Source: Roseivirga echinicomitans
GTDB taxonomy: Bacteria; Bacteroidota; Bacteroidia; Cytophagales; Cyclobacteriaceae
Length of the DNA stretch: 64,000 nt
Assembly: GCF_001592935.1 (NCBI RefSeq)
Contig: NZ_LRDB01000005.1
Span: forward strand, 1 to 64,000
Direction: 5' to 3'
Positions 61,495 to 64,000 of this stretch are shown here, in pieces (position 1 is the stretch's first letter; every line of letters starts with the position of its first letter). The notes under the pieces are model-generated. The model was given only the letters and a program-made list of their open reading frames with translations, was not told the DNA's origin and ran no database searches. Both the position numbers and the translations under genes were made by a program.

Positions 61495-62784
61495 ATGAAA
61501 AGAAGATCCTTACTTCAAAAACTCGCAGTTGGCGCAATTTCACTGCCCTTTATTGGTCGCTCCTTAGACGAATACTTGCCTAAAGAGAGTATTGCCGAAT
61601 GGAAAGGAGAGTTCGACCTCACCAAAACTCAGGATGAAGCATTTTGGAAGGCCTTTAAGAAAACCCACTACGATGTAAGCGACAAGTGGATCAATCTTGA
61701 GAATGGTTATTTTGGTGTACAGCCAAAAATGGTGGTGGACGCCTATGTGGAGTCCATTAAAAAAGTAAATAGGGAAAGTTCGGCTTATGCACGAAGAACT
61801 TTTAATCAGAAGGATTTCAGTCCTGTTATGGACACCTTGGCAAAGTTTTCGGGAGCAGCACGAGAGGAACTGCTGATTACCAGAAATGCCACGGAGGCGC
61901 TGAATATTTTGATTCAGGGCATCGATTTTCAACCGGGTGATGAAGTGATTCTCAACGAACAGGACTACCCAAGTATGATTGAGGCGTTCGAAATGCTCGA
62001 GAAGACAAAGGGCATTATCATCAAGCGTATAGCGCTGCCGATGATTCCAGAGAGTGATACGCAGCTAGTGAATTTATACCAAGCGGCCATGACTAACAAA
62101 ACACGTTGTATTCTAGTCACTCACCTGATTCATTTAACAGGGCAGATTATGCCAGTAAAGGCCATTGCCGATATGGCCCGACCGAAAGGAGTGGAGGTAA
62201 TTGTAGATGCCGCGCACAGTTTTGCGCATCTCGATTTTAAAATTCCAGATTTAGGCTGTGATTTTGTGGGCGTCAACCTGCACAAGTGGTTCAGTGCACC
62301 CATAGGCATGGGACTAATGTATGTGAAGAAGAATAGGATCAAAGACCTCAGTCCAATGTTTGGTGATGTAGGCCAGCGCGAAGATAATATTAACAAGCTG
62401 GGCCACTTCGGAACACTTTCATTCCCCACTTTGCTAACGGTACCCAAGGCAGCAGAATTTAATAATATGGTGACTATCCCCGTGAAAGAAGCACGACTTC
62501 GCTACTTACAAAACTACTGGACAAAGGAAATAGGAGGGATTGCCAATGCAGAATTGCTTACGCCAACCGAAGCGAAAAGAAGCTGTGCCATTGCTACCTT
62601 CAAACTACGTAACCTAGATGCAGATGAAGTAATCAATAGGCTCTATGATGACTTTGGCGTATTTACTGTAAAGCGGAATTTACCAAAGAATGAGAAAGCT
62701 ATCCGCGTAACCCCAAACCTATATAGCTCAACCTCCGATGTAGACCAACTGCTAGAGGGCATTCTGAAGTTAAGTAAGGTGTAA
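61495..62784 (+). CDS. Class V aminotransferase-fold enzyme with Tat-like signal (isopenicillin-N-epimerase-like)
   Basis: PLP enzyme of the cysteine-desulfurase/epimerase-like class V fold. The PLP lysine lies in NLHKWFSAPIG near residue 264, the Asp/His of the cofactor pocket in VDAAHSFAHLD near residue 240, and TRNATEALN near residue 127. The N-terminus RRSLLQKLAVGAISLP resembles a Tat or Sec signal, so the protein may be exported, which is unusual for this fold outside Bacteroidota. The length is 429 residues. The substrate is unknown; desulfurase, epimerase and other roles are possible. Confidence 0.85.
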   Translation: MKRRSLLQKLAVGAISLPFIGRSLDEYLPKESIAEWKGEFDLTKTQDEAFWKAFKKTHYDVSDKWINLENGYFGVQPKMVVDAYVESIKKVNRESSAYARRTFNQKDFSPVMDTLAKFSGAAREELLITRNATEALNILIQGIDFQPGDEVILNEQDYPSMIEAFEMLEKTKGIIIKRIALPMIPESDTQLVNLYQAAMTNKTRCILVTHLIHLTGQIMPVKAIADMARPKGVEVIVDAAHSFAHLDFKIPDLGCDFVGVNLHKWFSAPIGMGLMYVKKNRIKDLSPMFGDVGQREDNINKLGHFGTLSFPTLLTVPKAAEFNNMVTIPVKEARLRYLQNYWTKEIGGIANAELLTPTEAKRSCAIATFKLRNLDADEVINRLYDDFGVFTVKRNLPKNEKAIRVTPNLYSSTSDVDQLLEGILKLSKV

Positions 62785-63158
62785 AGGGTCTAACCGCGAA
62801 GGACGCTAAGTATCGCAAAGCCACAAGAACCGTCATTGCGCCTTCGCTGTAGCTTCTGCGCAAGTGCTCTGAAATTTTAACCTGATGTCAGTCAGGGTGA
62901 AATGAAAGAATCTTTGAGTTTTAAACAGTAACTGTCTAGATCAGACACTCCGGCTTCGGAGCTGTCTTCCTCGTCATCAGAATGACGTGGTAATTCGGAG
63001 CGTCATCCTCCTTCAAAGCCTTGGAGTATTTTATAGTTGCCTACTTTAAGTCACCCTGTAAGGGTCTTTTTCAGTAATACAGGTGGATTTCACTAGACTT
63101 TAAACAATAAACCCTAAACAGGTTTTTGTTCCCACCCAATTCTTTTTCAAAAAAAGGA
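62785..63158. other. Intergenic region with several short palindromes
   Basis: No gene of useful length. Short inverted repeats occur: CTCCG/CGGAG at 62948-62961, CGTCAT/ATGACG at 62972-62987, and a CCCT/AGGG hairpin near 63055. The start of the region is rich in short Bacteroidota-type spacer words. These look like REP-like palindromic clutter; I assign no function. Confidence 0.35.
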
Positions 63159-63188
63159 TTGCCAATTCGAAAATGCATTTTACCTTTG
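63159..63188 (+). promoter_or_regulatory. Promoter of the leader peptide and phenylalanine hydroxylase
   Basis: TTG at 63159-63161, 19 nt, TACCTTTG at 63181-63188, a full consensus match. The leader ATG begins five bases after the -7 box, so the transcript may start at or near that ATG. Confidence 0.55.
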
Positions 63189-63193
63189 AAGCA

Positions 63194-63265
63194 ATGTTAC
63201 ATAGCAGCGCACATCATCATTATTACTATTACTACCCGAACGATCGGAACGGCTGCGCTATGTAA
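63194..63265 (+). CDS. Leader peptide with His3-Tyr5 run
   Basis: A 23-codon ORF ending in TAA. Codons 7-9 are CAT (His) and codons 10-14 are TAT/TAC (Tyr), followed by Pro-Asn-Asp-Arg-Asn-Gly-Cys-Ala-Met. It lies upstream of phenylalanine hydroxylase, whose product is tyrosine, and downstream of a consensus promoter. An intrinsic terminator follows 32 nt after its stop codon. This is the classic arrangement of an attenuation leader. The alternation of two Tyr codons argues against a simple trinucleotide repeat. Confidence 0.75.
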   Translation: MLHSSAHHHYYYYYPNDRNGCAM

Positions 63266-63325
63266 ATTGTATAGAAACAATTAATCAAACATATATGACC
63301 CGATTCCGCAAGAATCGGGTTTTTT
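63197..63325 (+). promoter_or_regulatory. Candidate attenuator (leader hairpins and terminator)
   Basis: Stem TTACATAGC (63197-63205) pairs exactly with GCTATGTAA (63257-63265), plus three more pairs after a bulge, so a hairpin embraces the leader ORF. CCGA (63236-63239) can pair with TCGG (63244-63247). GATCGG (63242-63247) can instead pair with CCGATT (63300-63305), the left arm of the terminator. These alternatives allow anti-termination when a ribosome stalls on the His/Tyr codons. Pairing is inferred by eye. Confidence 0.55.
63298..63325 (+). terminator. Intrinsic terminator upstream of phenylalanine hydroxylase
   Basis: Stem ACCCGATTC/GAATCGGGT (9 bp) with loop CGCAA followed by five T. 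It lies between the leader peptide and the structural gene, 40 nt before its ATG, so it must be read through or prevented for expression. Confidence 0.8.
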
Positions 63326-63365
63326 GTTTTTAACCCATTCCAGCGGAGTCTTTAAAAAGGAAAGA

Positions 63366-64000
63366 ATGAAACAGATTTACGAGAATTACACAGCCGAAGA
63401 CCAGAAAGTGTGGGGCATCCTCTTCGACCGACAGTTTCCGAGTTTACCCAAGGCAGCAACCACTGAATTTACCAAGGGGTTAAAGCAGGTAAACTTCACC
63501 AATGAGGGCATTCCAAACTTTGAGAAAACCAATGAGATACTTCGTGGGTTAACAGGTTGGGAGATTTACGCGGTGCCCGGTATTGTGGAGGATGGTCTTT
63601 TCTTTGAGCTGATGGCCAATAAGAAATTCCCTGCTACAACTTGGGTACGAAAAATGAGTCAGTTGGACTATTTGGAAGAGCCAGATATGTTTCACGATGT
63701 ATTTGCGCACATTCCGTTGTTGGCGAATCAGGCTTTTGTAGACTTCCTTCAGGCCATCAGTCAGTTTGGTCACGAATGGATTGAAGACGAATGGGCAATT
63801 CATTTACTGTCAAGGATTTACTGGTATACCATTGAGTTTGGTTTGATCAGAGAAGACGGTGAAGTGAAAATATACGGGGCGGGAATATTATCGTCTGCGG
63901 GCGAAACTAAATACTCGTTGAGCGATGAGCCCAATCACTTTGAGTATGACGTAGATAAGATTTTAGAAACGCCTTACAGAAAGGATAAAATGCAAGAGAA
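63366..64000 (+). CDS. phhA: Phenylalanine 4-monooxygenase (partial, runs off the window)
   Basis: Aromatic amino acid hydroxylase that makes tyrosine from phenylalanine with a pterin cofactor and iron. At least 211 codons are present and open to the window end. The iron ligands are visible: His110 and His115 in PDMFHDVFAHIPLLAN, and Glu157 in WYTIEFGLI. The C-terminal part with SSAGETKYSL also fits. It has an ATG start with an A-rich sequence before it and no Shine-Dalgarno. Its expression is probably controlled by the leader peptide and terminator upstream. Confidence 0.93.
   Translation, partial: MKQIYENYTAEDQKVWGILFDRQFPSLPKAATTEFTKGLKQVNFTNEGIPNFEKTNEILRGLTGWEIYAVPGIVEDGLFFELMANKKFPATTWVRKMSQLDYLEEPDMFHDVFAHIPLLANQAFVDFLQAISQFGHEWIEDEWAIHLLSRIYWYTIEFGLIREDGEVKIYGAGILSSAGETKYSLSDEPNHFEYDVDKILETPYRKDKMQE

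Follow-up and report, generated by a model that had tools for sequence, protein, structure and literature searches.

A probable tRNA-Tyr and tRNA-His leader-peptide attenuator upstream of phhA-hisH in Roseivirga echinicomitans and its relatives

The window analysed here is a 64,000-nucleotide stretch of contig NZ_LRDB01000005.1 of the marine bacterium Roseivirga echinicomitans, and its last gene is phhA, which encodes phenylalanine 4-monooxygenase. A base-by-base check of positions 63159-63366 confirmed a promoter, a leader open reading frame (ORF) rich in His and Tyr codons (H/Y leader), an intrinsic terminator and the start of phhA, in that order, as a preliminary description made without database searches had claimed. 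The contig extends 810 bases beyond the window. The features of the region are as follows.

63159..63188, forward strand: Bacteroidota-type promoter (sequence, and promoter survey of 72 leaders)
63159-63161, forward strand: -33 TTG of the promoter (sequence; N19 spacer to the -7 box)
63181-63188, forward strand: -7 box TACCTTTG (sequence)
63194..63265, forward strand: leader peptide ORF MLHSSAHHHYYYYYPNDRNGCAM, 23 codons (conserved H/Y-rich ORF; HHH then YYYYY)
63197..63212, forward strand: predicted 1:2 hairpin (anti-antiterminator), strand 1 (MFE fold)
63212..63220, forward strand: three His codons CAT CAT CAT (sequence; they track downstream his genes)
63221..63235, forward strand: five Tyr codons TAT TAC TAT TAC TAC (sequence)
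63245..63252, forward strand: antiterminator helix 1, 5' strand CGGAACGG, codons Arg-Asn-Gly (folding, covariation)
63253..63268, forward strand: predicted 1:2 hairpin, strand 2 (MFE fold)
63259..63263, forward strand: antiterminator helix 2, 5' strand TATGT, over the Met codon and the stop (folding, covariation)
63289..63293, forward strand: antiterminator helix 2, 3' strand ACATA (folding, covariation)
63297..63325, forward strand: intrinsic terminator GACCCGATTC-CGCAA-GAATCGGGTT plus T6 run (fold; stem kept and covarying in relatives)
63300..63308, forward strand: antiterminator helix 1, 3' strand CCGATTCCG, with A63303 bulged (folding, covariation)
63366..64000, continuing to contig position 64103, forward strand: phhA, phenylalanine 4-monooxygenase (PF00351, NF008877)
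Contig 64126-64710, beyond the window: hisH (TIGR01855; score 211 bits, cut-off 105)

The -7 box is of the TAnnTTTG type described as the sigma-A box of Bacteroidota (PMC9723704), and the leader ATG at 63194 lies 5 nt downstream of it. From this spacing, without a mapped 5' end, we infer that the leader mRNA is likely to be leaderless or almost so. The exact arrangement TTG-N19-TAnnTTTG-N5-ATG has only three matches in the whole 4.18 Mb genome, one of them the phhA leader. The other two (L272 and L274) precede ORFs of 9 and 35 amino acids in which no amino acid is enriched. Within the leader an additional His codon (63200-63202) lies upstream of the HHH run, and H/Y leaders mix the synonyms TAT/TAC and CAT/CAC. 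Upstream, a class V aminotransferase gene (PF00266; window 61495-62784, forward strand) is separated from the leader promoter by a gap of about 370 bases, and this intergenic stretch (62785-63158) contains GCGAAGGACGCTAAG at 62796-62810, which occurs only once in the R. echinicomitans genome.

The product of phhA matches both PF00351 and the NCBIfam phenylalanine 4-monooxygenase family NF008877 above cut-off, and hisH starts 22 nt after the end of phhA. All Roseivirga genomes whose contig is long enough show the gene order phhA-hisH-hisA-hisF-hisIE on a single strand. In one genome (G001) a 121-aa ORF (L085, MEFSGNPIEKKSFEFSL...) is inserted between hisH and hisA; its product resembles a four-helix-bundle protein. 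Inferred from its gene families, the operon makes both of the amino acids coded in the leader, tyrosine through phhA and histidine through hisHAF-IE, which cover half of the his pathway. Prephenate dehydrogenase (PF02153) was not detected in the R. echinicomitans genome, which is 99.96% complete, and the same search was positive in 14 of 14 control genomes; the family is missing from 12 of the 19 Roseivirga genomes. PhhA is therefore probably the sole route to tyrosine in R. echinicomitans. Mutant fitness data from Dyella and from Echinicola vietnamensis support a role of bacterial phenylalanine hydroxylase (PAH) in making tyrosine (PMC7311316); E. vietnamensis is a relative of Roseivirga's family.

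To describe the structures between the leader and phhA, we folded the leader tail through the 5' arm of the terminator, and two antiterminator helices resulted. The folding z is -3.6. The arms of the terminator stem occupy 63297-63306 and 63312-63321 with the T6 run at 63320-63325. Antiterminator helix 1 and the terminator are mutually exclusive structures, since the 3' strand of the former overlaps with the 5' arm of the latter. In 26 related sequences 97.6% of terminator pair cells are kept, with 22 double changes, and 88.8% of antiterminator pair cells are kept, with four pairs changed on both sides. Covariation is seen in both antiterminator helices, and its score beats all column shuffles and is far above slid controls. 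In 29 of 35 loci the leader tail pairs better with its own terminator arm than with swapped arms. Antiterminator complementarity reached p<=0.05 in 31 of 68 loci; the combined p of 3e-24 is overstated because the loci are related. In Algoriphagus-type leaders the antiterminator pairing is weak.

These results bear on two points of the preliminary description. It had asked for the stems to be checked for covariation, and when this was done they were found to covary. Its antiterminator, GATCGG paired with CCGATT, held only in part. The GAT portion of GATCGG is not conserved in relatives, and the pairing is therefore replaced by the conserved and covarying CGGAACGG/CCGATTCCG, together with TATGT/ACATA.

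The first antiterminator strand begins 9 nt downstream of the last Tyr codon in R. echinicomitans, and across loci most leaders place the antiterminator 9-13 nt beyond their last H/Y codon. This distance is about the reach of a ribosome that holds the last H/Y codon in its A site, so the antiterminator would be free whenever a ribosome is stalled anywhere in the H/Y run. The minimum free energy fold also predicts a 1:2 hairpin (63197-63212 with 63253-63268) that could mask the antiterminator strand. It is strong in the R. seohaensis/ehrenbergii group, which includes R. echinicomitans, but was neither detectable nor significant in other Roseivirga, so a hairpin conserved across the genus is not supported.

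The leader is widely conserved. It occurs in all Roseivirga genomes whose region upstream of phhA is intact and in 72 of 187 unique phhA loci. When a leader was scored as at least five H/Y within nine codons, 72 of 184 upstream regions contained one compared with 1 of 552 dinucleotide shuffles. A terminator, counted when below -12 kcal/mol, follows the leader in 69 of the 72 loci compared with 2 of 360 shuffles, and at phhA loci without a leader ORF an upstream terminator occurs in about a quarter (26/113). When up to one mismatch is allowed, matches to the TAnnTTTG box peak 4-6 nt upstream of the leader ATG (46 matches among the 72 leaders), and the spacer to the TTG is 19-20 in 39 of 52 leader promoters. 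In Algoriphagus-type leaders (MNPTPRTYVHHSYHLLH) the box instead sits about 32 nt upstream. Tyr runs are present in nearly all phhA leaders, and a class-wide sample contained Tyr-run ORFs ahead of phhA in three more families outside the order (L295, L300, L303). Outside the H/Y run the leader is poorly conserved as protein, and its tail is conserved as the complement of the terminator arm.

An H/Y leader is present in Echinicola arenosa (L168). It was undetected at the phhA-hisHAF-IE operons of Marinoscillum (L169, L172, L181) and also at some loci of Algoriphagus and Belliella. Candidate ORFs in Belliella (L167 and L173, MVLVFVHTYHRWHYRA) and at L174 were excluded as probable chance or truncation. 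Many phhA loci with downstream his genes lack an H/Y leader; the leader is therefore not obligatory.

We compared the codon content of the leaders with the genes that follow phhA. Loci were called his+ when hisH plus hisA or hisF lies downstream, and loci with hisH alone downstream were excluded from the comparison. This left 46 his+ loci after one hisH-only locus (L213) was moved out; two of the 46, including that of R. echinicomitans, stop at a contig edge after hisH. Results from this showed that the nine-codon core contains at least one His codon in 46 of 46 his+ loci and at least two in 44 of 46. Among 17 his- loci, by contrast, ten have no His codon, six have one and one has two. For the threshold of two His codons (44/46 against 1/17) Fisher's test gave 7e-12, uncorrected for ancestry. 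Leaders without downstream his genes are mostly pure Tyr runs, the exceptions including L234 with two His codons and G029 and L147 with one each. In Marivirga the leader reads THNTYYYYYQ without his genes compared with NHYYYYHL or NHYYYYYHL with them, and in certain Algoriphagus leaders (MNPTPRTFVHHSYHHSQ) His codons outnumber Tyr codons.

On the PhhA tree, most of whose deep branches are weakly supported, the his label changes at least nine times. Phylogenetically independent pairs drawn from the best tree and scored by His count were at best concordant in eight cases and discordant in none, and other pairings gave seven concordant and one tie. With the two-His-codon threshold there were six concordant pairs and two ties. 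When only well-supported branches were used, up to three pairs remained, with a mean of 2.6 concordant and none discordant.

Two further kinds of locus deserve mention. In L143 and G054 a YYYYYYY leader precedes phhA-aminotransferase-tyrA, so that a single Tyr7 leader stands over both tyrosine routes. In the excluded loci, where phhA is followed by hisH only, the number of His codons is zero in G083 and G098, which count as exceptions too, one in L141 and L248 and two in L213; these five loci may represent an intermediate of operon break-up.

Separate his operons have leaders of their own. In R. echinicomitans the hisG operon is preceded by MLKNTHIASTTAPHVHHFHHLS, with TACCTTTG 6 nt upstream of its ATG, and a His-rich ORF (HxHHFHHLS; AHHVHHFHHLS-type) lies upstream of hisG in 19 of 19 Roseivirga genomes (L128, G000:C44; L275-L292). 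These hisG leaders have TAnnTTTG 5-7 nt upstream of the start codon and are not Tyr-rich. The hisG leader may be a second Roseivirga attenuator of the same design as the phhA leader. In two genomes where phhA is apart from the his genes, the his operons carry His runs of HHHHHH and HHHH: the genome of L143 has MNLSVNKYHHHHHHFNIDLMHGRYMF upstream of hisG and that of L147 has MKGTMAHMHHHHARS... about 0.5 kb upstream of hisH. In Marivirga genomes without his genes beside phhA, no H/Y leader was found within 7.7 kb upstream of the separate hisH. From the leaders of his operons and of phhA taken together we conclude that a His leader goes with his genes, a Tyr leader with phhA and a mixed leader with the joined operon.

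These data support the idea that the phhA-hisH leader is a ribosome-mediated transcription attenuator with two inputs, a shortage of tRNA-Tyr or of tRNA-His. We consider this likely in the absence of expression, ribosome-profiling or term-seq data. The anatomy, conservation, covariation, operon content and correlation of His codons with his genes are shown; the transcription start, translation of the leader, stalling, termination in vivo and response to amino-acid starvation are inferred. In the proposed sequence of events RNA polymerase would start at about the leader ATG and a ribosome would trail it across the His and Tyr codons. As long as charged tRNA-His and tRNA-Tyr are sufficient, the ribosome would reach the stop codon and cover CGGAACGG...TATGT, the terminator would form and transcription would end upstream of phhA. 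Were either tRNA short, the ribosome would stop in the H/Y run, about 9-13 nt upstream of the antiterminator strand. Pairing of 63245-63263 with 63289-63308 would then produce the antiterminator and block the terminator, and phhA-hisH(-hisA-hisF-hisIE) would be transcribed.

The preliminary description had proposed a Tyr-codon attenuator of phhA and had stated that the reading would fail if relatives lacked Tyr-rich ORFs here. This did not occur, as the ORF and terminator are kept across genus, family and order, and the proposal is supported from sequence, with the starvation response remaining inferred. Its hesitant 'perhaps tRNA-His' is strengthened by the finding that His codons track his genes in the same operon. 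The histidine codons are probably in the leader because his genes follow phhA, and hisH, located beyond the end of the window, could not be seen at that time.

Four other explanations were considered. The one that survives best, which we regard as unlikely, is that the element is a tyrosine-only attenuator in which tRNA-Tyr alone is sensed and the CAY His codons arose from TAY by neutral drift. The change from TAY to CAY needs only one transition, Tyr is the constant feature in most leaders, and one-His leaders without his genes do exist (G029, L147). However, drift should ignore operon content, yet at least two His codons occur in 44 of 46 his+ and 1 of 17 his- loci; no independent pair is discordant, and in some Algoriphagus leaders (MNPTPRTFVHHSYHHSQ) His exceeds Tyr. 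The remaining three seem very improbable to us. A histidine attenuator in which the Tyr codons are incidental and phhA is a passenger of the his operon would fit the downstream his genes found throughout Roseivirga and the His leader of hisG. However, Tyr runs are kept and His is lost where phhA is alone or with tyrA, and the hisG leader in the same genomes is not Tyr-rich. Alternatively, the ORF might encode a functional His/Tyr-rich small protein, for instance a metal-binding one, with the terminator merely its gene end. The peptide is translated under the attenuator model too, and some leader peptides work in trans (peTrpL, PMC7298713), but protein conservation is poor beyond the H/Y run, the tail is kept as the complement of the terminator arm, and codon identity tracks the downstream operon. 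Finally, the terminator might be an ordinary boundary, with phhA expressed from another promoter and no control via translation, as the long intergenic region and the terminators at 26 of 113 phhA loci without a leader ORF would allow, but promoter, leader, complementary antiterminator and terminator co-occur with fixed order and spacing.

Returning to the two-input attenuator, a bolder reading, which we also think probable, is that it acts as an OR-type Tyr/His device whose codon mix is retuned whenever phhA and his genes join or part. On this reading it would be Tyr-only over phhA or phhA-tyrA, His over separate his operons and mixed over phhA-hisHAF-IE, common in Cytophagales and with similar Tyr leaders in other families of Bacteroidia. 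A leader codon set that tracks the genes it controls would amount to a series of natural experiments on the gain and loss of attenuator specificity. It would also establish leader-peptide attenuation in Bacteroidota with the leader ATG beside the promoter, and would tie a biosynthetic phenylalanine hydroxylase, probably the sole tyrosine route in R. echinicomitans, into histidine control.

As a comparison with catalogued elements, Rfam covariance models gave no match to His_leader (RF00514) or any other catalogued leader at the gathering score, the best weak leader match being Thr_leader (21.9 bits against 55). A T-box or other catalogued RNA was rejected for lack of a covariance-model match in Rfam, and the leader peptide had no family match in Pfam or NCBIfam. 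Sensing of tyrosine is usually ascribed to T-boxes or regulatory proteins and not to leader peptides. A survey of actinobacterial regulation assigned histidine, threonine and phenylalanine to attenuators and tyrosine to T-boxes (PMC1262725). The open-access literature searched yielded no account of a leader peptide specific for tyrosine, of a Tyr plus His leader or of a phhA attenuator; an initial suspicion of novelty is consistent with that search and with the PMC1262725 listing.

The class of mechanism, multi-input leaders and leaderless leaders are already known. The enterobacterial hisL (Rfam RF00514) and pheA/pheST leaders likewise have a run of product-amino-acid codons in a short ORF, then a mutually exclusive antiterminator and intrinsic terminator, with the first structural gene next. 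The Roseivirga leader differs from these in its phylum, in its Tyr codons and two pathways, in its target (phhA-hisHAF-IE) and in an ATG that abuts the promoter. In the same phylum, leader-peptide attenuators have been noted upstream of amino-acid operons in Flavobacterium psychrophilum, although the main text gives neither their specificities nor a mention of phhA (PMC9723704). The leaderless trpL of Sinorhizobium meliloti (PMC7298713) similarly has its leader ORF at the 5' end of the transcript, which is inferred for Roseivirga, but it has Trp specificity and belongs to an alphaproteobacterium. The Tyr T-box riboswitch of Firmicutes also couples tRNA-Tyr charging to a choice between terminator and antiterminator, as proposed here, whereas sensing in the Roseivirga leader would be through translation. 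The multi-input leader peptides of E. coli are thrL (Thr and Ile) and ilvL (Ile, Val and Leu), in which, as proposed here, a single peptide senses several amino acids. Their amino acids share a biosynthetic pathway; by contrast, no pathway relates the His and Tyr of the Roseivirga leader, which only operon fusion has brought together, and in leaders of this type the mix of codons tracks operon content between species.
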